From assembly GCA_013390375.1 (NCBI GenBank), contig JACATA010000001.1, positions 74,211 through 115,526 on the forward strand: a stretch of 41,316 nucleotides of DNA, in the 5' to 3' direction. This document shows positions 4,910 to 29,730 of this stretch, in pieces (position 1 is the stretch's first letter; every line of letters starts with the position of its first letter). Position numbers and translations under genes: made by a program. Source of the stretch: Marine Group I thaumarchaeote. Its GTDB lineage: Archaea; Thermoproteota; Nitrososphaeria; Nitrososphaerales; Nitrosopumilaceae. A model generated the notes under the pieces. It made no database searches and was not told the DNA's origin. It was given only the letters and a program-made list of their open reading frames with translations.

Positions 4910-6064
4910 ATGAGCAGTCATGTATATCCAAAGGAAAAAGAAATTTTTCCTGGTCTTCAGCTAGAAAAAGTTGATGATCGAATAATGACTCTTAATGTTG
5001 GTCCTCAACATCCGGGTTCCGGTCATATGCGAATCATCCTCAAAGTTGACGGAGATTATATTGTTCACTGTGATCCAGATCCCGGTTATGTACATAGAGG
5101 AGAAGAAAAGATGGCTGAATATAGAAATTATATAACAAACATTCCTCACCTAGAAAGACCAGTTATTCACGATTCATGCAACATTCTCTATCCATACTGT
5201 CTTGGGGTTGAAGAATTACTTGGATTAGAGGTTCCAGAACGAGCCAAGTACCTCAGGGTAATCGCAGCTGAGCTCAACCGATGTGTATATACACAATATT
5301 GGCTTGCTATCTATGGTATTTTCCTTGGTCATTCTACAATGTTCATGTGGCCTATGGGAGACCGCGAACTTGTGATTGATCTATTAGATAAGATGACAGG
5401 AGCACGTGTTACCCATGCGTACTTTGTTCCTGGTGGAGTCAGAAATGATCTTCCTCCCAACTTTGAGGATGTATGTTTGAGACAAGTAAACTATTTTGAG
5501 AAAAGGCTTAAAGAATATGCTGATATTTTTTACGACAATCCAATTCTAATTTCAAGAACTAAAGATACGGGTATTTTGTCAAGAGAAGATGCCATTAAAC
5601 TTGGCACAACCGGTTCTGTTTTGCGTGCAAGCGGTGTGGACTTTGACATTAGGAAGAAGGAACCATATGATGTTTACGAAGAATTGGATTTTCAAACTAA
5701 CGTGCTTAAAGAAGGAGACTCTTACGCCCGTTCTAAGATTCCTTGGCTTGACATGTTCGAAAGTTGTAGAATAATTAGAGATGCACTGAAAAAGATGCCA
5801 AAGTCTGGCTCTGTCAGAGTAAAACTAAAACCAAATCCAAAAGGCGGAGATACTGAGGTTTATCGTAGAGTTGAATCAGGTAGGGGCTCACTTGGAATGC
5901 ACATTATTTCACGTGGCAAGCCACAGCCATACAGATTGAAGATTAGTGTTGGTTCATTTAGAAATTTGATTGCTATGCCACATCTACTTACGGGCGAAAT
6001 GCTTGGAAATATGCCAGCTGTTTACTGGAGTTTAAACTATTGGCCAGTGGAGGCAGATAGGTAA
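4910..6064 (+). CDS. nuoD: Complex I subunit D (49 kDa-type)
   Basis: Forms the quinone-binding pocket together with NuoB and is related to the large subunit of NiFe hydrogenases. Family motifs in the 384-residue protein include NVGPQHPGSGHMRIILKVDG, DPDPGYVHRGEEK, the HDSCNILYPYCLGVEELLG segment and TGSVLRASGVDFDIRK. The C-terminus has ISVGSFRNL...LLTGEMLGNMPAVYWSLNYW. The hydrogenase-type nickel cysteines are absent, as expected for complex I. It starts 3 nt after nuoC and its stop codon directly adjoins the nuoH ATG. Confidence 0.96.
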   Translation: MSSHVYPKEKEIFPGLQLEKVDDRIMTLNVGPQHPGSGHMRIILKVDGDYIVHCDPDPGYVHRGEEKMAEYRNYITNIPHLERPVIHDSCNILYPYCLGVEELLGLEVPERAKYLRVIAAELNRCVYTQYWLAIYGIFLGHSTMFMWPMGDRELVIDLLDKMTGARVTHAYFVPGGVRNDLPPNFEDVCLRQVNYFEKRLKEYADIFYDNPILISRTKDTGILSREDAIKLGTTGSVLRASGVDFDIRKKEPYDVYEELDFQTNVLKEGDSYARSKIPWLDMFESCRIIRDALKKMPKSGSVRVKLKPNPKGGDTEVYRRVESGRGSLGMHIISRGKPQPYRLKISVGSFRNLIAMPHLLTGEMLGNMPAVYWSLNYWPVEADR

Positions 6065-7375
6065 ATGTCAGTAATTGCACCCAAGTTTAGACTTGGTTAC
6101 CTGATCAAAGGAATTACCGACAACATCTTTTGGATTATTGTTTTAATGACTCTGATTGGCATTCCAGTCGTTCAGATAGTTCTGATCTACATAGATTTTC
6201 CCGTAATTGATGGAGAAATTTGGAATCCATTTAGGGTATTTGATGCCATGACGCACCCAGAAAGAGCATTGCCACTTGTAAAAAATTTCATGCAAACTGA
6301 TCTTTTCAAAATTGTGGCATTTCCCGGATTTGGATTTGCAGCCTTGATTGCAGCCGCAGTTATATTTGTAGAAAGAAAGATGTTGGCAAAACTACAGCTA
6401 AGAGTAGGACCATTTTACTGTGGAAAAGTTGAGGGCATCCTACAACTAATGGGCGATGGTTTAAAATTAATTTCCAAGGAAATAATAATTCCAGCAAAAG
6501 CTGACAAGCCAATTTTCTGGGCAGTCCCTGTTCTGTTTGCCGCAACCGCAGGTGCATTTGTTGCCCTGATACCTGTTGCACCTGGATGGGTTGTAGCTGA
6601 CATTGATTTGGGCTTGTTAGCTGTGTTTGCCGTAATAGGGTTTTTCCCAATAATTACCGTTTTAGCAGGATGGTCTTCTAATAGCAAATTCCCGTTTATT
6701 GGCGGCATTAGAGCCCTTTACCAAATGGTTTCATTTGAAATTCCGTTAATTCTCTCACTTTTGGGTATTGTAATGCTAACGGGAACTCTTAATTTATCTG
6801 AGATTGTCGAGAGTCAGGTCAACTTTCCATGGATCATTTTCATGCCGATTGGGGCAATTGTATTTTTCATTTGTATACTTGCTGAACTTGAAAGGATTCC
6901 ATTTGATCTGCCTGAAGCAGAAAGTGAAATTGTGGCAGGCTGGTTGACTGAATTATCTGGAATGATGTACGGTCTTGTTCAGCTAGGTTCTTATCTCAAG
7001 CTTTACGCCTTTGCAGGACTTTTTGTTGTATTGTTTCTAGGTGGATGGAATGGTCCTTGGGTTTTTCCAATCGAACCAATTGCAGAGGTCATCACCGATG
7101 GTATTGTTATAATGCCAGACGCTCTTGTTATAAAAGATATTCCAGGTCTGCCATTGTTCGCAGGGGAGATGATAAACGGAACAATTTGGTTTGTTCTCAA
7201 AACAGCTGCAGTAATCTTTTTCATACTTCTTCCAAGGGGAGTTTTTCCACGTGTTAGAATTGATTTGCTGTTAAAAATTGGCTGGTACAAGTTAATTGTG
7301 CTAGCTTTTGTTAACATCTTCATTGCCTTAGCTTTGGTGTACAGTGGCATTATAGGACCAGGAGGTATAATGTAA
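6065..7375 (+). CDS. nuoH: Complex I subunit H
   Basis: Membrane subunit that lines the quinone channel and links the peripheral arm to the proton-pumping arm. The 436-residue protein has the NuoH landmarks ERKMLAKLQLRVGPFYCGK, GLKLISKEIIIPAKAD and LAELERIPFDLPEAESEIVAG. It is longer than a typical bacterial NuoH (about 325 residues). The extra length is an N-terminal extension of roughly 80 residues and an insertion around residues 325-375 between the last helices. The C-terminal helix follows RGVFPRVRIDLLLKIGW. The stop overlaps the nuoI start by 1 nt (TAATG). Confidence 0.95.
   Translation: MSVIAPKFRLGYLIKGITDNIFWIIVLMTLIGIPVVQIVLIYIDFPVIDGEIWNPFRVFDAMTHPERALPLVKNFMQTDLFKIVAFPGFGFAALIAAAVIFVERKMLAKLQLRVGPFYCGKVEGILQLMGDGLKLISKEIIIPAKADKPIFWAVPVLFAATAGAFVALIPVAPGWVVADIDLGLLAVFAVIGFFPIITVLAGWSSNSKFPFIGGIRALYQMVSFEIPLILSLLGIVMLTGTLNLSEIVESQVNFPWIIFMPIGAIVFFICILAELERIPFDLPEAESEIVAGWLTELSGMMYGLVQLGSYLKLYAFAGLFVVLFLGGWNGPWVFPIEPIAEVITDGIVIMPDALVIKDIPGLPLFAGEMINGTIWFVLKTAAVIFFILLPRGVFPRVRIDLLLKIGWYKLIVLAFVNIFIALALVYSGIIGPGGIM
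7361..7366 (+). promoter_or_regulatory. Ribosome binding site for nuoI
   Basis: GGAGGT, a strong Shine-Dalgarno match, lies 8 nt before the nuoI ATG and inside the end of nuoH. This internal operon gene uses leadered initiation, unlike the operon's first gene. Confidence 0.7.
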
Positions 7376-7872
7376 TGGGAACTGCATCTGGAATAATTAA
7401 AGCACTTAACTCTGGCATTAAACATATTGCAACTAAGCGATTTACATTTAGATATCCAGAGCAGAAACTAAAGTTTGTAGGAGATGGTTATCAGTATGAT
7501 CCTGATAGCGGTGTAGGTATAGCTGGCTACAAAGGACGCCATATACTTTTTCATGACAAATGTACAGGGTGCCAGCTTTGTGCTATTGCTTGCGAAGATA
7601 TTGCAGAAGCTATTGCAATGGTCAAAGTTCCTGAACAATGGAAACATAACAAAAAGGCAATAATGCCTCAGATCGATTATGGTAAGTGTGTGTTTTGCGG
7701 ACTGTGTGTTGACGCATGTCCTTTCTATGCCCTGTACATGACAAATGACTATGAGCTGTCTTCATTTACCAAAGAAGCCCTAATCTATACTCCTGCACAG
7801 CTACAAGTAAAGCCAAAAGTTGACCAAGACGTAGAAATTCAGATTGATGAAAAGGGCGCTAATCATGGTTGA
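7375..7872 (+). CDS. nuoI: Complex I subunit I, 2x[4Fe-4S] protein
   Basis: Ferredoxin-like subunit of 165 residues that carries clusters N6a and N6b and feeds electrons to NuoB. The first Cys set is Cys63, 66, 69 and 73 (CTGCQLCAIACED) and the second is Cys105, 108, 111 and 115 (CVFCGLCVDACPF). In the first set the usual Pro after the fourth Cys is Glu, a common feature of NuoI. A strong Shine-Dalgarno precedes the ATG. The stop lies 8 nt inside nuoJ. Because no NuoE, F or G is present in this operon, NuoI is probably the most distal redox subunit and the likely docking site for the electron donor (inference). Confidence 0.95.
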   Translation: MGTASGIIKALNSGIKHIATKRFTFRYPEQKLKFVGDGYQYDPDSGVGIAGYKGRHILFHDKCTGCQLCAIACEDIAEAIAMVKVPEQWKHNKKAIMPQIDYGKCVFCGLCVDACPFYALYMTNDYELSSFTKEALIYTPAQLQVKPKVDQDVEIQIDEKGANHG

Positions 7873-8380
7873 CGCACTTTTCCTTGGAATTGCAGTTTTA
7901 ACTATAGTTTCTGCAATAGCAGCACTTGAGATGCGCTCACTAATTTATGGTGGCTTAGCTTTAATGGGAACATTAGGCGGCATTGCAGGCTTTTTCATTC
8001 TGTTAGATTCACCGTTTGTAGCATTGTTCCAGATTGCTGTGTATGTAGGTTCCATTGCTGTACTGATTTTGTTTGTTATTATGCTGGTAAAGAGCGAATT
8101 AATCTTTCAGAAGAAAGAGGATCCAAAACGAAGGTATGCGGGAATAGCTCTTATGCTGATACTAATGATCTGCTTAGGAGCTGTAATATTCAATTCAGGC
8201 CTATCCTCCATAACCACTGAAGAGCCACCAGTGGACTACAAAGAGATTGGTGAGGACTTTTTGATATATTATTGGCCGGCGCTTATTGCTATGGCGCTTG
8301 TATTGGCTGGTTCAATTACTGGTGCCTTGATCTTGGCACGAAGACAGGATGCGGTAGAAGATGAGCAACGAACTGATTGA
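7865..8380 (+). CDS. nuoJ: Complex I subunit J
   Basis: Membrane subunit with five predicted helices. The family signature region is FVALFQIAVYVGSIAVLILFV, including the pi-bulge helix, followed by IMLVKSEL. I choose the ATG at 7865 (MVDALFLG), which overlaps nuoI by 8 nt and gives 171 residues. An in-frame ATG at 7844 would add seven polar residues before the first helix. The 3' end overlaps nuoK by 20 nt. Confidence 0.9.
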   Translation: MVDALFLGIAVLTIVSAIAALEMRSLIYGGLALMGTLGGIAGFFILLDSPFVALFQIAVYVGSIAVLILFVIMLVKSELIFQKKEDPKRRYAGIALMLILMICLGAVIFNSGLSSITTEEPPVDYKEIGEDFLIYYWPALIAMALVLAGSITGALILARRQDAVEDEQRTD

Positions 8381-8666
8381 TTTTGTAATTGTTTCCGTTG
8401 CCCTTTTGGCAATCGGTATTTATGGTTTATCAGTAAAACGAAATTTCATTCGAATGTTGTTTGCGGTTGAAATTGTCATAAATGCAGCTAACCTAAATCT
8501 AGTTGCATTTGCAAGATTTTTACCGCACAGTGGTGGGCAAACATTTGCATTATTTTCTATTGCAATAGCGGCTGCAGAAGTTGCAGTTGGACTTGCACTT
8601 ATCATTGTAGCATACAGAATGTACAAGAACATCGATGTAGCTGACTTCAGGAGCTTGAAAGGCTAA
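8361..8666 (+). CDS. nuoK: Complex I subunit K
   Basis: Small 101-residue MrpC-like membrane subunit with three helices. It carries the conserved buried glutamates that form part of the central proton path, in MLFAVEIVINAANLNLVAF (first) and AIAAAEVAVGLALIIV (second). Its length is that of the family. It overlaps nuoJ by 20 nt and nuoM by 1 nt (TAATG). Confidence 0.93.
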   Translation: MSNELIDFVIVSVALLAIGIYGLSVKRNFIRMLFAVEIVINAANLNLVAFARFLPHSGGQTFALFSIAIAAAEVAVGLALIIVAYRMYKNIDVADFRSLKG

Positions 8667-10216
8667 TGGAATATGCATTACTTCAGGCAGTCTTCCTGCC
8701 CCTCCTACTCTCGCCTCTAGCCTATATTATTGGAAGAAAGGTTGGTCATACTGCCGCAACCTGGTTTACATTTGGATTATTGCTTTACTGCACCATTCTT
8801 ATCATCACTGCATCTATTGGTGGAACCTACGAAGAACATTATCCCTGGACTGAGCTCTTTGGCGAATTTGGATTTATGCTTGACGGCTTAGCAGCCCCAT
8901 TTGCAATAATGATCTATGTTTTGTGTACGATACTTGCGTTATACTCTAAACCTTACATGCTTCACAAGTTTCATGAATTTTTCAAAGAGCAAGCACCAAA
9001 ACCTGTCTATCAAAGTGACGGAACAGTCTTAGAGTCAGTATCTCTAGAAAAATTTGTAAACAGGCAGTCCGGTGTGTATTATGCACTTTTCCTAGTTTTT
9101 TCAATGGGAATGCTTGGAACAGTGCTTGCAACCAACCTGATTGAATTTTACATATTCTTCGAAGTTATGCTAATTCCTGCATTCCTTTTGATAGGCTTCT
9201 GGGGTGATCATCCAAGACGCAGAGTTGCGCTCATGTTCTTCTTCTGGACACATGTTGGCGCAGTAATTCTTCTCTTGGGATTATTAGCTATAGGTCTTAA
9301 CGTTGGCAGCTTTGACTTTGCTGATATTAACGAGACTGATATCCCACCTGGTATTCTACTTGCTGCTGCTGTTGCAATAATAATTGGTTTAGGCGTAAAA
9401 CTTGCAGCGTTTGGATTCCATATCTGGTTACCGTATGCTCATGGGTCTGCGCCAACTCCTATCAGCGCTTTACTTTCCCCCGCCATGATCGGAATTGGAG
9501 CATATGCACTCTTTAGGTTGATAGTGGAATTTTTACCGCAAACATACGCCGACTTGTCCATTTGGATCAGCATATGGGGTGTGGCAACGATGTTTTACGG
9601 TGGTGCCATGGCGTTAATGCAAGATGACATCAAGCGAGTTTTTGCATACTCTAGTATCAGCCAAATGGGCTATCTTCTGTTTGGAATTGGTTCTATGTCT
9701 ACCCTTGGTCTAGCCGGAGCAGAAATGATGTATATTTCTCACGCATTGGGTAAGGGATTGCTTTTCATGACAGCTGGAGTATTAATCGTGCATGTAGGTG
9801 CACGGCATTTATCAAAACTTGGCGGTCTTGCAGGAAAGATGCCGATAACTGCAGTTTGTGCTTTTATTGGAGCATTGACAATAATGGGAGTTCCACCGAC
9901 TAGTGGCTTTATGGGAGAATGGATGTTGTTCTATGGCGTTTTGGAAACTGCACTAGAAGAAGGAGACGACTTGCGAACATTGCTGTTTGCACTTGGCTTG
10001 GTTGCAACTGTTCTTACTATGTCATACATTCTATGGATGTTCAAGCGAGTATTCTTGGGAAAGATTCCGGAAAATCTTTCGAAGGTCAAGGATGGTAGCT
10101 GGTACATGTTGGCACCAATGATGGTCCTTGCCGGATTTACAATAGTAGTAGGTATCTATCCTGACATTTTCTTACAAAAAATCATGCCATACATGCAGGG
10201 GGTTTTGGGAGGATAG
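8666..10216 (+). CDS. nuoM: Complex I antiporter-like subunit M
   Basis: One of three Mrp-like proton-translocating subunits, 516 residues with about 14 helices. Motifs include FFEVMLIPAFLLIGFWG with the key Glu of helix 5, GVKLAAFGFHIWLPYAHGSAPTPISALLS with the Lys and His of helices 7-8, and DDIKRVFAYSSISQMGYLLFG. It was assigned as M rather than L because it lacks the long C-terminal lateral helix. An insertion of ~40 hydrophilic residues lies between helices 3 and 4 (around residues 94-133). It precedes nuoL, an M-L order, whereas many bacteria have L-M. Confidence 0.92.
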   Translation: MEYALLQAVFLPLLLSPLAYIIGRKVGHTAATWFTFGLLLYCTILIITASIGGTYEEHYPWTELFGEFGFMLDGLAAPFAIMIYVLCTILALYSKPYMLHKFHEFFKEQAPKPVYQSDGTVLESVSLEKFVNRQSGVYYALFLVFSMGMLGTVLATNLIEFYIFFEVMLIPAFLLIGFWGDHPRRRVALMFFFWTHVGAVILLLGLLAIGLNVGSFDFADINETDIPPGILLAAAVAIIIGLGVKLAAFGFHIWLPYAHGSAPTPISALLSPAMIGIGAYALFRLIVEFLPQTYADLSIWISIWGVATMFYGGAMALMQDDIKRVFAYSSISQMGYLLFGIGSMSTLGLAGAEMMYISHALGKGLLFMTAGVLIVHVGARHLSKLGGLAGKMPITAVCAFIGALTIMGVPPTSGFMGEWMLFYGVLETALEEGDDLRTLLFALGLVATVLTMSYILWMFKRVFLGKIPENLSKVKDGSWYMLAPMMVLAGFTIVVGIYPDIFLQKIMPYMQGVLGG

Positions 10217-10219
10217 TAA

Positions 10220-12292
10220 ATGGCAACAGAGATTATTGCGACTGAGGGAGATGCAATGTTTGCTTGGTTGATTTGGATTCTTCCATTCGTTGCAGCTCTA
10301 ATTATTCCAGCAGTTGCAAAGGTATCAAAACTTTCAACCGGAAGAGTTGCTATTGGATTTGCTGCAATGAGTGCCATCTCGGCAGCAATGTTATTCCCAA
10401 TGGCGCTAGAGGGACATGAGATTCATAGTCAAGTTGATTGGATTTCTGCTATTGGCTTGAAGGCTGGAGTTTTAGCTGATCCACTTTCAATAATTATGGC
10501 AAACGTAGTTGGATGGATTTCCTTCCTGATCATATGTTACAGTACAGGATACATGAAGGGCGACAAGGATATAGTTCGATTCTGGTTCTGGATGATGTTC
10601 TTCATCGGTTCTATGCAATTGATAGTGTTATCTGACAATCTGCTTCAGCTCTTCTTTGGATGGGAAGGAGTTGGACTTGCATCTTATGCTCTCATTGCGT
10701 TCTGGTATCGTGACAAAGCTAAGCATCACGTAGGCAAGGAAGGTAGAACGGTTCTAGGAATAATGGAATACTATTCGCCAACACACTCTGGAATGAAGGC
10801 GTTCATCATGACAAAGGTTGGAGATGTCATGATGCTTGCGGGCATGTTTTTGATCTTTGCCTTTGCTGGAACATTTGGATTTAAGGAATTGCTTGCTGAT
10901 ACAGCATGGGCAGTCAACATGTCTGCAGAAGGCCTGCTTGTGCCGGCAGTAGTATTGCTTTTTGGTGGTGCAATAGGCAAGTCAGCACAATTCCCACTTA
11001 ACGAATGGCTCTTAGAAGCAATGACCGGTCCAACTGCTGTTTCAGCCCTTATTCACGCGGCTACAATGGTAAAAGCAGGAGTTTTTCTGGTTGCAAGGCT
11101 TGGGCCACTAGTCTTTGCACTTGGCGCTGCCGGAATTTTAGTGGACCAATTCTTTGAGATTATCGCTTGGGTTGGTGCATTTACTGCTCTTTTGCTGGCA
11201 ACTCAAGCTATGGTAAACCCAGAGATTAAGAAAGTTCTCGCATATTCTACCGGCTCACAAATTGGTTATATGATGATGGCACTTGGAATTGCAGGACTTT
11301 CAGAACAATTTGTTGATGGGTATACCGCTGGATTCTACCATATGATCTCCCATGCAATGTTCAAGGCTTCGCTATTCATGGCTGCTGGCTCCTTGCTGCA
11401 CGTTGTTGGTTCACGGTTTATGACAGATATGGGTGGTTTGCGAAAAAAAATGCGGAAGACATATGCGTTCATGTGGGCTGCAGGTCTTGGACTGATGGGA
11501 GCTCCATTTATCACCACAGGATTCTGGAGTAAGGACGCAATTTTTGCTGCTGTCTACGAATCAGGAAATGAGTGGGCGTTACCAATTTTCATCATAGCCG
11601 TTTTGACCGCTGCCATCACAGCATTTTATACCACAAGAATGATGGGGTTGGTCTTCTTTGGCAAAGAAAGTAAGCATATTGAAAAGATGGAAAGTGAAGG
11701 TCACCACATACATGATGCACCGAGGTCTATGTGGATTCCATACGGAATTCTTGCAGTGTTAACTATTGGAATAGGAGTAATTGGATTTTCGGCTGAAGGC
11801 GGAATTCATGAACTATTCACTGAATATCTTGATGAGTCATTTGGCATCCAAACACCACATATTGATGTGGAAATTTCTGGATCGTTAGGCTTCTTGTCCG
11901 GACTTAACCCAATTGCTGTCGGCGCATCACTGGTGGCTTTTGCAGTTGGCTTTGGTCTTGGATACATATTCTATATTGGTCGCTGGGTAGATCCTGTCAA
12001 GTTTATCAATTCAAATATTTTCTTTTATGCTTTACACAAAGTAATTCTAAATCGATGGTACCTTAACGCAATGATCTACTGGGGCTTCGTTATTGCACCT
12101 TTATGGGCTGCCAGAGCTATATGGAGATACTTTGAGAAAACTGCAATTGACACTGGCATGAACACTGGATTAGAACGTTCAGTCAGGTTTGGAGCTAAAG
12201 TTGTTCAAGGAACTCAGACTGGTGTAGCACAATCCTATCTTTTCGTATTTGGAGCAGGACTTCTGTTTGTAGTTCTGATATTGTTGATATAG
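10220..12292 (+). CDS. nuoL: Complex I antiporter-like subunit L
   Basis: The largest proton-pumping subunit, 690 residues. Landmarks are FFGWEGVGLASYALIAFWYRD with the helix-5 Glu, GKSAQFPLNEWLLEAMTGPTAVSALIHAATMVKAGVFLV and ALLLATQAMVNPEIKKVLAYSTGSQIGYMM. After residue ~480 comes a charged cytoplasmic stretch and a long C-terminal part, matching the horizontal helix and anchor that span the other antiporter subunits. The segment GYMKGDKDIVRFWFWMMFF is typical of NuoL. The stop (TAG) is part of the nuoN Shine-Dalgarno region. Confidence 0.94.
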   Translation: MATEIIATEGDAMFAWLIWILPFVAALIIPAVAKVSKLSTGRVAIGFAAMSAISAAMLFPMALEGHEIHSQVDWISAIGLKAGVLADPLSIIMANVVGWISFLIICYSTGYMKGDKDIVRFWFWMMFFIGSMQLIVLSDNLLQLFFGWEGVGLASYALIAFWYRDKAKHHVGKEGRTVLGIMEYYSPTHSGMKAFIMTKVGDVMMLAGMFLIFAFAGTFGFKELLADTAWAVNMSAEGLLVPAVVLLFGGAIGKSAQFPLNEWLLEAMTGPTAVSALIHAATMVKAGVFLVARLGPLVFALGAAGILVDQFFEIIAWVGAFTALLLATQAMVNPEIKKVLAYSTGSQIGYMMMALGIAGLSEQFVDGYTAGFYHMISHAMFKASLFMAAGSLLHVVGSRFMTDMGGLRKKMRKTYAFMWAAGLGLMGAPFITTGFWSKDAIFAAVYESGNEWALPIFIIAVLTAAITAFYTTRMMGLVFFGKESKHIEKMESEGHHIHDAPRSMWIPYGILAVLTIGIGVIGFSAEGGIHELFTEYLDESFGIQTPHIDVEISGSLGFLSGLNPIAVGASLVAFAVGFGLGYIFYIGRWVDPVKFINSNIFFYALHKVILNRWYLNAMIYWGFVIAPLWAARAIWRYFEKTAIDTGMNTGLERSVRFGAKVVQGTQTGVAQSYLFVFGAGLLFVVLILLI

Positions 12293-17000: not shown

Positions 17001-18092
17001 ATGCCCGAAATATGGTTAAATTATGGCTCAACTGATGTTGTCTTAGATATAAAAGCAGAAAATCTTGAGGAAAAAATAGACGCAGAGGGAAAAACTCTCT
17101 CAGATTCTGAAATCAAGTCAAAATTAGAATCATTAGATATTTCAAAACCAACAGAATTTGTAGTTCTCAACACATCAGAATCAGTAAGAAAAACATTATC
17201 AATTCTATTTGAAAGATATGAGCAAAAATCAATTCCTAAACCACAAATCTTGGCTGACAGGAAAATAATGAATTACATAAAAGACTATCTTCCGGAACAA
17301 AGTTCTATATCTGAATTTTCTAACGTAGAAGATTCCAACTCAAAATTAGTTTTTATTGGTGAAATGGAATTTGATGGATTGTTTGGTTATGAAACCATAT
17401 CCACAAGATTATTAAAAAAATTTGGTGCTGAATTAATGCTTTCAGCATATGAAAAAAGAAAAGGCGATTTGCCCTCACCAGGTCAAGATGTAGAAAATTT
17501 TCAAATTGCGAGAAAATTTTCTGAAAAATTTGATATATTGGCAATTGAGATCATTGCAAATTCAAATGGCATGTATGATTTAGCAGTAGGACACCCATCA
17601 TCTACAGCTTCCATATCAAAATCATTTGGAACTAATGCAACAAAAGATATTGGAAAACATAAAACTATGATAATAAGCACTGGAAAAGAGTCCAGTAATA
17701 ACACACTGAGTAAGTCTTTGTCGTCATTGTGGAACTGCTCAGACGCAATAAAGAATGACGGCTTTGCCATATTGATAGCCGAATGCAAACTTGGTATTGG
17801 TTCAGATGGAATTCAAAGTTTCATAGACGGCAGAATGAATATGGATCGTTTGAAAAAACCTTCTCAATATATAGACGGTATGGAAAATCTTCTATACATT
17901 GCTGAAACACAAAAGAAATTTCAGCTTGGCTTACTATCTATACTACCAACACATTATACAAAAAAACTAAGCATGAAACCATTTAATGGAATTAAACAAG
18001 TAATGGATTATGTATTAAAAAACCAGGGTCAGAAACAAAAAGTAGAAGTCATCTCTGATGGGGCTCGTACTCTTTTAAGGCAAAATTCCTGA
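17001..18092 (+). CDS. LarA-like (DUF2088) domain protein of unknown function
   Basis: A 363-residue soluble protein. The start (IWLNYGSTDVVLDIKAENL) resembles the N-terminus of the nickel-pincer lactate racemase LarA. So does the end, with AECKLGIGSDGIQSF, then LPTHYTKKLSMKPFNGIKQV and VEVISDGARTL, a pattern also found at LarA C-termini. I do not see the LarA active-site histidines and lysine in a convincing arrangement, and no larB/larC maturation gene lies nearby, so racemase activity should not be assumed. It is divergent from pyrE (50-nt gap) and overlaps the convergent protease gene by 18 nt. Another reading is a lineage-specific protein with a distantly similar fold. Confidence 0.5.
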   Translation: MPEIWLNYGSTDVVLDIKAENLEEKIDAEGKTLSDSEIKSKLESLDISKPTEFVVLNTSESVRKTLSILFERYEQKSIPKPQILADRKIMNYIKDYLPEQSSISEFSNVEDSNSKLVFIGEMEFDGLFGYETISTRLLKKFGAELMLSAYEKRKGDLPSPGQDVENFQIARKFSEKFDILAIEIIANSNGMYDLAVGHPSSTASISKSFGTNATKDIGKHKTMIISTGKESSNNTLSKSLSSLWNCSDAIKNDGFAILIAECKLGIGSDGIQSFIDGRMNMDRLKKPSQYIDGMENLLYIAETQKKFQLGLLSILPTHYTKKLSMKPFNGIKQVMDYVLKNQGQKQKVEVISDGARTLLRQNS

Positions 18093-24220: not shown

Positions 24221-25450
24221 ATGAGTGATTTGGAAAATTCCCAAAAAGCTTCTTATGCGGTTTTTTTCTGTACTCTTGTAGTTGTATTACTTACTCTTAC
24301 TCCAGTAATTTTTCCTGCGTTATATTCGTCATCTTTTGGCATGTTTACAGAAAATCTAAACCCATTTGAGCTTGGCTACCAGTCAACTTTTCTTATTGTA
24401 AGTAATGTTGTAATTCTTGGCTTTGGTATTGCGTATTATAAGAAAAAAATTCCTTCGCTGGTACATGATGTAGTTGACAAAATTCGTACATTTGAAATAT
24501 CAAAAAGAGTAACCATTATAGCTTTAGCTGTTATTCTGGGAGTGTATATTGGGTTATCAGCACCAGAACTTTCTCTTGATGAGGGTGCAGACTGGGCTGA
24601 TTATGATGCAGTACTATTACCGGCATTAGAAATCTGGCCGTTTGGTCAAACTGATGATATTTACGTCCAAGAACAAAACGACAGATATGTTAGGATGTTT
24701 TTGCTTGATGTATCGCTTGATATATTCCAAAACATCAAACTTCTACCGTTTATAGCTAGCATTTTGGTAGTAGTTTTTACTTATTTAGTCACTGTCCAAT
24801 TTTGCCAAAAGCGGTTTGCAGGAATTATTGCCGTAATTGTATTGTTGCAAAGTTACACATTCCTGAAATTTGATACTGTTGCGGTCTATGAAAATTTCTG
24901 GGTTTTGTTCTTCCTGATTTCATTATATGTGATAGAAAAAAAATGGTTTTTGTCCCCTGTTTTTTACATACTTGCATTTTACACTAAAGCATATGTAGCG
25001 CCATTTTTCCTGATGACTCTGTTTACTACGTATAGATCACAAATATCTAGAAGAACAAAAATTGGGATATTAATTTCATATGTTATACTAGTATCAGCTG
25101 CCATTGCTCTAATTTTCTTAGGTGATACGGTATATCCGGATGTAATAGATGTCAATTATAGCAAATTTATTTTAGGATTTCAGGTAATTATCGCTCAATT
25201 AAGATTTGATCTTTTTTTTATAATGTTACTGTTGCCTGTGACGGTTGGTTTGATGTTTCTTTCAAAAAATAAATTAAAACATGCTGATTCCATTCTAATT
25301 CTAATTTTTGGAACCATAATAGCAAGTCCAATATTGGTAACGTTCACTTATCATTATGAAATTTTACCCTATAGGTTTATTCCACTACTAATCTTCTTTT
25401 CAATTGGTGTGGGAATGTTCTTTGCAAAAAACTCAAAAATACATGTATAG
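24221..25450 (+). CDS. Polytopic membrane protein, probable GT-C-type glycosyltransferase
   Basis: A 409-residue protein with about 10 predicted membrane helices. After the third helix (residues ~98-113) comes an outside loop with acidic residues (SLDEGADWADYDA), then RYVRMFLLDVSLDIFQNIKLLPF running into a helix. This is the layout of the first extracytoplasmic loop of ArnT/PMT-like lipid-sugar-dependent transferases, which hold catalytic acidic residues there. Further helices and FTYHYEILPYRFIPLLIFF near the end also fit. Sequence similarity is generic, so donor and acceptor are unknown. It would act at the membrane's outer face on lipids or S-layer proteins. Confidence 0.55.
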   Translation: MSDLENSQKASYAVFFCTLVVVLLTLTPVIFPALYSSSFGMFTENLNPFELGYQSTFLIVSNVVILGFGIAYYKKKIPSLVHDVVDKIRTFEISKRVTIIALAVILGVYIGLSAPELSLDEGADWADYDAVLLPALEIWPFGQTDDIYVQEQNDRYVRMFLLDVSLDIFQNIKLLPFIASILVVVFTYLVTVQFCQKRFAGIIAVIVLLQSYTFLKFDTVAVYENFWVLFFLISLYVIEKKWFLSPVFYILAFYTKAYVAPFFLMTLFTTYRSQISRRTKIGILISYVILVSAAIALIFLGDTVYPDVIDVNYSKFILGFQVIIAQLRFDLFFIMLLLPVTVGLMFLSKNKLKHADSILILIFGTIIASPILVTFTYHYEILPYRFIPLLIFFSIGVGMFFAKNSKIHV

Positions 25451-26429: not shown

Positions 26430-28097
26430 ATGGGATTAAATTACTATCAGATTAAAAGGAAGATTCTCAAGGCTAGAAAGCTTGTGATTCAAGCTACAGC
26501 AGCTGCCGGATCTGGTCATCCCGGAGGATCTTTTTCTATGGCTGAAATTATGGGCTGTTTATTTTACAAATACTTGAGGTATGATCCAGAAAATCCGGGT
26601 TGGGAAGATCGTGATAAGCTTATACTTTCAAAGGGTCATGCATCACCTGGTCTTTTTTCAAATTTGGCGGTAGCTGGTTACTTTGATCCTGAGTATGTTA
26701 AAACATTGAGAAAGTTTGGAAGCAAACTTCAGGGTCACCCAGACCTAAAGTGTCCTGGCGTTGAGTTTTGTGGAGGCTCTTTGGGAATCGGACTGTCATA
26801 TTCTATTGGGAATGCTTTAGCTGCAAGAATTGATGGTAAGGATCATAGAATTTACACAATTATTGGTGATGGGGAGTCTGATGAGGGTCAAGTTTGGGAG
26901 GCAGCAATGACAGCTGCCAAGTACAAGATTGATAACATGACTGTATTCCTTGACAGAAACTTCATACAACAAGATTCCTATACAGAAAAAATCATGCCAC
27001 TTGATGAGGAGTTGCTTGGTGATGACTTGTCAGAGATGTGGAAAGACGCAAGCAGATGGAAGACTGGTGACAAGTGGCGCTCTTTTGGTTGGAATGTTAT
27101 CGAAATTGATGGACATAGAATTGAGCAAATTTCAGATGCCATAAGAAGAGCCAACCAAACCAAAGGACTTCCATCAATTATCATTGCTAGAACTATCAAG
27201 GGCAAAGGAGTAGAACATATGGAAGATAATCCACAATGGCATGGCAAAGCTCCCAAACCGGAGATGGTTCCAATTATTGAAGATGAGCTTGAGGCACAGT
27301 TTATGATTGCACCTTCAATTATTGCCGGTGATATGTCAAATCTTGAAAAGGAAGTTAAACGATGCGTTGATGGGAGAGCTGATTATATCCATCTGGATGT
27401 TATGGATGGTCAGTTTGTTCCTAACAAAACATTTGATCATACAAAGATCAAAGAGTTACGCCCGTTAACGCTGATTCCTTTCGATGCCCATCTTATGATT
27501 GATGAGCCGGTAAAACATGTACATGATTACGTAGATGCCGGGAGTGATATTATCACTGTTCATGCCGAGGTGTGTGATGAATCTAGCTTTGGTGAAATAT
27601 GTGATGTGTTACATTCAAACGAAGTTGGAATTGGGCTTGCGATCAATCCAGATACAGAACTGCCACAATGGTGTTACAAATTTGTAGAATTACTAGACCA
27701 AGTAATTATCATGTCTGTGGTTCCAGGCAAATCTGGTCAGAAATTCATAGAGTCAACCCATGAAAAAACTAGGCGAGTTACTAAAGATCTTAGAGAGCAT
27801 AAATTTGAGGGATACGTCGAGTCGGATGGGGGAGTTAATTTGGAAAATATAGGAGCATGTTTTGAGGATGGCGCAAGAGCATTTGTGGGAGGAAGTGCAA
27901 TCATTGGGCAAAATGATGTCAGAATGATCATTAAAGAGTTTAGAAACCAGGTTCTCGAGTCCAGAAGAAGATTGCTGATTAAAAAGGCGCACGATCTTGG
28001 TGGAACAGAACTCGTTAACAGTTGGATTGATCTCCATGTTGTTGGAGAAAAAAAGGACAAGCTAGTTCAGATTGCAAAGGAGCTTGGGTTTCAATGA
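26430..28097 (+). CDS. Fusion: transketolase N-terminal (TPP) domain + ribulose-phosphate 3-epimerase
   Basis: A 555-residue two-enzyme fusion. Residues 1-~288 are the transketolase pyrophosphate-binding half, with GSGHPGGSFS, SKGHASPGL, the TPP motif GDGESDEGQ (146-154) ending at Asn177 in DRNFIQ, and KGKGVEHMEDNPQWHG. Residues 292-~505 are a complete (beta/alpha)8 epimerase with MIAPSIIAGD, YIHLDVMDGQFVPN, FDAHLMI, IIMSVVPGKSGQKF and ESDGGV; the four metal-ligand positions (His, Asp, His, Asp) are present. A ~50-residue charged helical tail follows. The TPP half must pair with the separate C-terminal transketolase subunit encoded downstream (4-nt ATGA overlap). Together they interconvert Xu5P, Ru5P and R5P and other sugar phosphates. 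Confidence 0.92.
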   Translation: MGLNYYQIKRKILKARKLVIQATAAAGSGHPGGSFSMAEIMGCLFYKYLRYDPENPGWEDRDKLILSKGHASPGLFSNLAVAGYFDPEYVKTLRKFGSKLQGHPDLKCPGVEFCGGSLGIGLSYSIGNALAARIDGKDHRIYTIIGDGESDEGQVWEAAMTAAKYKIDNMTVFLDRNFIQQDSYTEKIMPLDEELLGDDLSEMWKDASRWKTGDKWRSFGWNVIEIDGHRIEQISDAIRRANQTKGLPSIIIARTIKGKGVEHMEDNPQWHGKAPKPEMVPIIEDELEAQFMIAPSIIAGDMSNLEKEVKRCVDGRADYIHLDVMDGQFVPNKTFDHTKIKELRPLTLIPFDAHLMIDEPVKHVHDYVDAGSDIITVHAEVCDESSFGEICDVLHSNEVGIGLAINPDTELPQWCYKFVELLDQVIIMSVVPGKSGQKFIESTHEKTRRVTKDLREHKFEGYVESDGGVNLENIGACFEDGARAFVGGSAIIGQNDVRMIIKEFRNQVLESRRRLLIKKAHDLGGTELVNSWIDLHVVGEKKDKLVQIAKELGFQ

Positions 28098-29068
28098 GTA
28101 CAGAACAGCTAGGCGATATGAGAACTGAATATAGCAAAGCGCTTGTTGCGGTTGGCGAGGAAGATCCAAATATTGTTGTTTTAGGGGCTGATACCACTGA
28201 CTCGTTAAAGACTGCCAACTTTGGGAAAAAATTTCCTAAAAGATTTTTCAACGTAGGAATTGCAGAAGCCAATCTAGTTTCAGTGGCTGCAGGACTTGCA
28301 TATTCTGGAAAGACAGCCTTTGCAAGTACGTATGCAATCTTTCTGCCAGGACGATGCGTTGATCAAATTAGAAATGCAATTGCATATCCATCTCCGGGAG
28401 ATAAAAATGGCCTAAATGTTAAACTAGTTGTATCTCATGCCGGTCTCAGTGTTGGAGCTGATGGTGGTTCCCACCAACAAATTGAGGATATTGCAATCAT
28501 GCGAGCAATTCCCAACATGAAAGTTCTTGTACCAGCTGATTCAGTCACTGTTTCAAAACTTACTTGGACAATTGCTCAACAATATGGACCATTCTATATG
28601 AGAATGGCCAGATCAAAAACTCCTATTATTCACAGTGACTCGCAAGAATTTCAGATTGGAAAAGGAATAACATTGCGAGATGGTTCTGATTGCACCATAG
28701 CCGCATGTGGAATTACTGTTAAGATTGCATTGGATGCAGCTGAACTGCTTCAACAAGAGGGAATATCTTGCAGGGTTATTGATTGCTTTTCTGTTAAGCC
28801 AATTGACAAGGAACTTTTAGAAAAAGCTGCTAGGGAAACAGGATCAATTGTAACTTGTGAAGAACATAATGTTATGGCTGGATTTGGTTCTAGAGTGTCG
28901 GAAGTTGTTTCAGAATCTTATCCTGTCCCAATAAGAAGAATTGGCGTACAGGACAAGTTTGGAGAATCAGCGCGTGACAATGAAATTCCACAATTATTTG
29001 AAAAACATGGGATAACATCTATTAATATAGCAAAAACAGTAAAGGAAGTAAGAGGTCAAAAACAATGA
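28094..29068 (+). CDS. tktB: Transketolase C-terminal subunit
   Basis: A 324-residue pyrimidine-binding and C-terminal half of a split transketolase. Conserved features are VLGADTTDS at the start, the Glu that activates TPP in FNVGIAEANLVSVAAGLA, FASTYAIFLPGR, the HAGLSVGADGGSHQQIEDI segment and the C-terminal domain (IDCFSVKPIDKELLE, VTCEEHNVMAGFGS). The start overlaps the fusion gene by 4 nt and the end overlaps transaldolase by 4 nt, so stoichiometric synthesis is likely. Its partner, the N-terminal half, is fused to the epimerase. Confidence 0.95.
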   Translation: MSTEQLGDMRTEYSKALVAVGEEDPNIVVLGADTTDSLKTANFGKKFPKRFFNVGIAEANLVSVAAGLAYSGKTAFASTYAIFLPGRCVDQIRNAIAYPSPGDKNGLNVKLVVSHAGLSVGADGGSHQQIEDIAIMRAIPNMKVLVPADSVTVSKLTWTIAQQYGPFYMRMARSKTPIIHSDSQEFQIGKGITLRDGSDCTIAACGITVKIALDAAELLQQEGISCRVIDCFSVKPIDKELLEKAARETGSIVTCEEHNVMAGFGSRVSEVVSESYPVPIRRIGVQDKFGESARDNEIPQLFEKHGITSINIAKTVKEVRGQKQ

Positions 29069-29730
29069 AAATTTTTCTAGACACAGCTAATCTTGATACT
29101 ATACGAATGTACAATGACATGGGACTTGTAGATGGGATTACAACAAATCCTTCATTACTAGCAAAAGAAGGCGGTGACCCACAAAAAACAATGGAAGAAA
29201 TTTCAAGAATAATCAAGGGAGATGTAAGTCTTGAAGTTGTCAGTACTGATTATGACGGAATGATGGAAGAAGGGAGACAACTTCGCAAGTATGGCGACAA
29301 TGTTATAGTTAAATGTCCAATGACTGGCGAAGGACTCAAAGCGTGTAAGAGTTTAACTGCAGAAGGAATTCCAGTTAATATCACTCTTGTATTTTCTCCA
29401 AACCAAGCTCTTTTGGCTGCAAAAGCTGGCGCCAAATATGTCAGTCCGTTTATTGGACGGCTAGATGATATTGGTCACACTGGCATGGATCTGATTAAAG
29501 AAATTAAACAGATTTTTGGAAACTATGATTTTAAAACACAAATTCTAGTTGCAAGCATTAGACACCCACAGCACGTAGTTGATGCTGGAAAAATTGGTGC
29601 TGATGTTGTAACAGTCCCAGCAGTAGTTCTTGGCAAGATGCTTAATCATACATTGACTGACAAAGGTTTGAAAGCATTTCTAGATGACTGGGAAAAGCTA
29701 AAATCAGAAAGTCCAAGTGTCGAAGTTTAA
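29065..29730 (+). CDS. tal: Transaldolase, small TalC/FSA-like type
   Basis: A 221-residue (beta/alpha)8 enzyme of the short transaldolase/fructose-6-phosphate aldolase group. Landmarks are MKIFLDTANLDTI, GITTNPSLLAKEG, the Schiff-base lysine in NVIVKCPMT, then GIPVNITLVFSPNQALLAAKAGA, SPFIGRLDDIG and VASIRHPQHVV. It is the third gene of the pentose phosphate operon. Whether it transfers dihydroxyacetone units (transaldolase) or acts as an aldolase cannot be settled by eye; the setting favours transaldolase. The TATTTTTT-rich end is followed by an AT palindrome. Confidence 0.93.
   Translation: MKIFLDTANLDTIRMYNDMGLVDGITTNPSLLAKEGGDPQKTMEEISRIIKGDVSLEVVSTDYDGMMEEGRQLRKYGDNVIVKCPMTGEGLKACKSLTAEGIPVNITLVFSPNQALLAAKAGAKYVSPFIGRLDDIGHTGMDLIKEIKQIFGNYDFKTQILVASIRHPQHVVDAGKIGADVVTVPAVVLGKMLNHTLTDKGLKAFLDDWEKLKSESPSVEV

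Follow-up and report, generated by a model that had tools for sequence, protein, structure and literature searches.

A transketolase N half fused to ribulose-phosphate 3-epimerase in Nitrosopumilaceae: operon, relatives and a likely route to the fusion

The window, a 41,316-nucleotide stretch of DNA from a Marine Group I thaumarchaeote, encodes the TPP-binding N half of a split transketolase and a ribulose-phosphate 3-epimerase on a single 555-aa chain, followed by the C half of the transketolase and a transaldolase. From the observed sequence, conservation, gene order, phylogeny and residues, we consider it highly probable that a split transketolase absorbed the neighbouring epimerase in a single ancestral fusion and serves a biosynthetic non-oxidative pentose phosphate pathway. 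The existence of the fusion is already known. In the accessible portion of a recent report, a Tkt-N/Rpe fusion of Thaumarchaeota appears as cluster 341.1, computed and counted in 73/98 assemblies (PMC11237513, mSystems 2024), and the window is an instance of it as described there; a sequence-only reading of the same DNA had been unsure whether the fusion had been studied. What is added here is a likely gene-order route, a single fusion event, a tail and a 3-aa insertion found only in the fused clade, and a second fusion in reverse order. Neither the reverse fusion nor the tail nor the gene-order route was described in the literature searched, which also contained nothing related to a 'transketolase-epimerase' fusion under other wordings; no biochemical study of the fusion was found in the open literature, outside which most subscription journals lie.

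The features of the fusion gene and its operon partners, in window coordinates, are the following.

26430 to 28097, plus strand: TK-N/RPE fusion gene, 555 aa (single open reading frame; Pfam; conserved in the family)
26463 to 27269, plus strand: transketolase N half (TPP-binding), aa 12-280 (Pfam PF00456; alignment with the 6yak N chain)
27006 to 27059, plus strand: 18-aa insertion in the TPP/cofactor loop, about aa 193-210 (N-half alignment)
27270 to 27305, plus strand: junction, aa 281-292, 12 residues (model; substitutions mostly at the third codon position)
27306 to 27905, plus strand: ribulose-phosphate 3-epimerase domain, aa 293-492 (Pfam PF00834; alignment with 1rpx)
27951 to 28094, plus strand: C-terminal tail, about aa 508-555 (comparison of fused and unfused tails; model)
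28094 to 29068, plus strand: transketolase C half, 324 aa (Pfam Transket_pyr and Transketolase_C; 6yaj match, E 2e-94)
29065 to 29730, plus strand: transaldolase, TalC/MipB (FSA-like) family, 221 aa (TIGR00875, 302.8 bits, cut-off 246)

The fusion frame starts with ATG and contains no internal stops. Pfam searches placed Transketolase_N at residues 12-280 (E 1e-46) and Ribul_P_3_epim at residues 293-492 (E 2e-52) of the same chain, which bears out the coordinates and the two-domain architecture of the sequence-only reading. The epimerase domain scored 178 bits against PF00834 (cut-off 21.1), passed NF004076 (200 bits, cut-off 165) and fell below the stricter TIGR01163 (186.6 bits, cut-off 212.6). 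Alignment with the 6yak N chain and a position check showed that H30, H70, H103, D147, E152, N177 and H271 were kept in the N half, and the same procedure with 1rpx recovered the metal/catalytic residues H321, D323, H354 and D466 of the epimerase; R10, D33, S37, E58, H115, D123, H127 and R173 were kept in the C half. The catalytic motifs were thus retained, as previously claimed, and from general knowledge of these enzymes we take the conserved residues of all three parts to have catalytic or metal-binding roles. In a model of the fusion monomer (50 sequences; pLDDT 80.6, pTM 0.84), a predicted helix at 277-288 runs directly into the first epimerase strand. The low-confidence stretches of the model (99-105, 177-210 and 256-271) include active-site residues, and these loops may become ordered upon binding of the C half.

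Both halves of the transketolase are present on separate chains, each of which has its best PDB match in the corresponding chain of a split transketolase, that of Carboxydothermus hydrogenoformans (6yaj, 6yak). The fusion and the C half, and likewise the C half and the transaldolase, are joined by an ATGA overlap of 4 nt, in agreement with the operon first described for this DNA; the TIGR00875 match identifies the product of 29065-29730 as transaldolase/fructose-6-phosphate aldolase. The sequence-only reading had also proposed that the N half has to pair with a separate subunit. That subunit is the C half at 28094-29068, and the N half would be expected to need it because the Carboxydothermus hydrogenoformans split transketolase proved active once its alpha2beta2 assembly had been reconstituted (PMC7661550). 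By analogy, we infer that two copies each of the fusion chain and the C half would form an alpha2beta2 assembly with two TPP sites, in which each N subunit would carry one epimerase domain. Some PDB epimerases are deposited as oligomers, which we count against our main explanation. Elsewhere in the window, subunits of Complex I (49 kDa, NADHdh, antiporter-like) lie in a gene run at 4910-12289 and biotin carboxylase at 830-2320, while a hydrophobic 409-aa product (24221-25450) and a 363-aa product (17001-18092) had no Pfam match at cut-offs of E 1e-8 and 1e-3.

The genome that contains the window is 94.7% complete, and this gene accounts for its single Transketolase_N match and its single Ribul_P_3_epim match; no second copy of the epimerase or the N half was found in that genome. 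Since the sole N half and the sole epimerase found are parts of this chain, both functions presumably rest on it. RpiA is present outside the operon, PEP carboxykinase is encoded in the window, and the one model searched for glucose-6-phosphate dehydrogenase (G6PD_C) had no match in the draft genome. Because of these three observations, the net flux, inferred for steps that are both reversible, is more likely to run from fructose-6-phosphate to ribose-5-phosphate. The direction assumed in the sequence-only reading, with the epimerase making xylulose-5-phosphate for transketolase, is on the same grounds probably reversed. Fructose-6-phosphate and a triose would be converted to xylulose-5-phosphate and ribose-5-phosphate through the fusion, transaldolase and RpiA; the transketolase would make xylulose-5-phosphate, and the attached epimerase would convert it to ribulose-5-phosphate for RpiA. 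Only one match of the OMPdecase family was found in the genome, presumably orotidylate decarboxylase, so hexulose-phosphate synthase is probably absent.

A search of thaumarchaeal genomes for the same domain order, as had been suggested for this DNA, matched the fusion in 188/200 sampled genomes of the window's family (f1, which is Nitrosopumilaceae, via a named member), in 22/22 genera and in 117 of the 119 good-quality genomes. Almost every family match listed covers residues 1 to about 554 and is free of stops; the remainder are partial, where a contig ends, or represent second copies. The fusion, at 73-94% identity to the window, is present at all 80 named loci, which belong to Nitrosopelagicus, Nitrosopumilus, Nitrosarchaeum and marine group I and derive from MAGs, isolates and single-cell genomes. 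The 4-nt overlap between fusion and C half is conserved in 75 of them, and the second overlap, between the C half and the transaldolase, is kept in 73/75 with the transaldolase in view. A second family, f3 (probably Nitrososphaeraceae), is fused as well: by our own tally from the class-level search table, 34/35 genomes give one match whose strength exceeds what a lone domain would yield (E <= ~1e-146), and the loci inspected were fused in 4/4 cases. Three f1 genomes (G123, G020 and G024; 88-95% complete) lacked both the fusion and an epimerase match, through either an assembly gap or a real loss. Two genomes of the window's genus carry an additional divergent, unfused transketolase N half (G078:C1:73785-74585, 39% identity; G052:C157:11-727, 52%), which is a paralogue or binning contamination.

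Outside these two families, the N half and the epimerase are separate genes in f2 (probably Nitrosocaldaceae), f4, f5 and f12, arranged in the order N half, epimerase, C half and, where it is in view, transaldolase. At three loci of f2 (L085-L087), the N-half stop and the epimerase start share 4 nt. The two transketolase halves adjoin each other in f7 (L066, L067), with the epimerase elsewhere. Families f1 and f3 group together in each of three trees, with supports of 100/98 for the N half, 89/98 for the epimerase and 97/91 for the C half, and in the last of these f2 together with f5 is their closest unfused neighbour. The simplest account of these sequences would be that the fusion happened once, in an ancestor shared by f1 and f3, both of them ammonia-oxidiser families. 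The likely route is that the epimerase gene already sat between the transketolase halves in unfused relatives; the stop between N-half and epimerase genes that already touched or overlapped would probably have been lost, and the fusion fixed later. One tblastn match had made f12 a candidate for a fused family, which was rejected on finding stops between the domains. The amoA gene is present in f1, f2, f3 and f5 and absent from f4 and f12, and the archaeal amoA was found in the window's own genome. Because f2 and f5 have amoA and yet keep the two genes unfused, the fusion is dispensable for ammonia oxidation, and we rejected it as a hallmark of that process.

The fused clade has further features of its own. 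About 45 residues follow the epimerase domain in all fused proteins examined, in the model of the window protein forming the last part of a long helix (497-534) and a second one at 540-551, whereas unfused epimerases lack this tail or have a few to ~25 dissimilar residues instead. The tail had gone unmentioned in the sequence-only reading. The C half of the fused clade carries a 3-aa insertion (FGES-ARD-NE) that is absent from the aligned unfused sequences. The 18-aa insertion in the cofactor loop was seen only in f1 and falls in the low-confidence model stretch 177-210. These clade-specific features could reflect co-adaptation or plain shared ancestry, which are indistinguishable because only one branch carries them.

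An epimerase-family search across the phylum (398 genomes) found, beyond f1 and f3, two genomes of one f20 genus in which a frame of ~538 aa matches the epimerase strongly.

L081:1687-3297, minus strand: reverse fusion, epimerase followed by N half (epimerase Pfam match 8-196, N half 267-517)
L082:1599-3212, minus strand: reverse fusion, epimerase followed by N half

The C half and the transaldolase adjoin this reverse fusion. The two proteins are 83% identical, with a less conserved linker of 47 residues (55%), and the frame is very probably real because their differences fall mostly at third positions in both domains. The reverse fusion occurred in 2/163 genomes searched in the order of f20. 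Its N halves group apart from the f1/f3 fusions in the tree and its domain order is opposite, so that on the sequence evidence it is an event independent of the f1/f3 fusion. Its TPP motif is SDG, not GDG, which makes its activity less certain. The phylum-wide RPE matches of ~20-36 bits in frames of 400-900 aa were taken as other TIM barrels and set aside. We offer only tentatively, as a somewhat doubtful reading, that the two enzymes were fused twice independently, in opposite orders, and in the first case with a tail and an insertion in the partner subunit. If true, the double fusion would suggest that an epimerase-transketolase assembly was selected for and did not arise by chance.

Fixed 1:1 stoichiometry, co-assembly and proximity are candidate benefits of the fusion, all of them compatible with our main explanation. 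We lean slightly towards the view that a frameshift or stop loss between touching operon genes gave a 1:1 ratio or was simply harmless. In unfused relatives the genes already stand side by side in this order, some with a 4-nt overlap, so the step is small, and two other ammonia-oxidiser lineages manage without the fusion; however, essentially every sampled genome of two families has kept it, along with a conserved added tail, which suggests constraint. It seems unlikely that the fusion was kept for handover of xylulose-5-phosphate between active sites in the complex, by channelling or local enrichment. Such handover would fit two consecutive enzymes, a short and in the model apparently rigid junction (helix 277-288 directly into the epimerase), a tail and a C-half insertion confined to the fused clade, and an apparently independent second fusion of both enzymes. 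But epimerases are fast and near equilibrium, so that channelling would bring little gain, the clade-only features are perhaps plain shared ancestry, and the opposite order of the second fusion argues against one required geometry. An assembly or sequencing artefact that joined two genes, conceivable for a draft genome of 37 contigs, is rejected with near certainty, because the identical frame occurs in all 80 named loci across MAGs, single-cell genomes and isolates, none with the stop or frameshift at 27290-27310 that the sequence-only reading had named as the sign of two separate proteins, and because the third-position substitution pattern runs across the junction (2/0/8 at codon positions 1/2/3 between the window and L101, codons 276-300).

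The fusion matters because ammonia-oxidising archaea are among the commonest marine microbes, and in the studied genome the fusion chain looks like the sole source of two steps that supply ribose-5-phosphate. It is also a natural test case of what the joining of consecutive enzymes achieves, be it channelling, co-assembly or nothing at all, with built-in controls in the unfused close relatives of the same gene order and in the reverse-order fusion.

Compared with known systems, cluster 341.1 joins the same Tkt N terminus and Rpe in the same archaeal group as the window, and the accessible portion of that report is silent on the tail, on an origin through gene order, on the insertion in the C half and on the reverse-order fusion (PMC11237513). 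In Carboxydothermus hydrogenoformans the split transketolase (6yaj, 6yak) has its N and C halves on separate chains, as in the window; unlike the window protein, its N chain (309 aa as deposited) has no epimerase domain, and its cofactor loop is 18 aa shorter than that of the window N half. The epimerases 1rpx, 2fli and others resemble the window domain (~36% identity, TM 0.86-0.91, metal/catalytic residues kept) but are free-standing, without a transketolase half or a helical tail. The archaeal Hps-Phi fusion likewise joins two consecutive enzymes of pentose metabolism and, according to the accessible text of the same report, has been validated by experiment as bifunctional, although its enzymes, those of the RuMP route, differ from the window's (PMC11237513).
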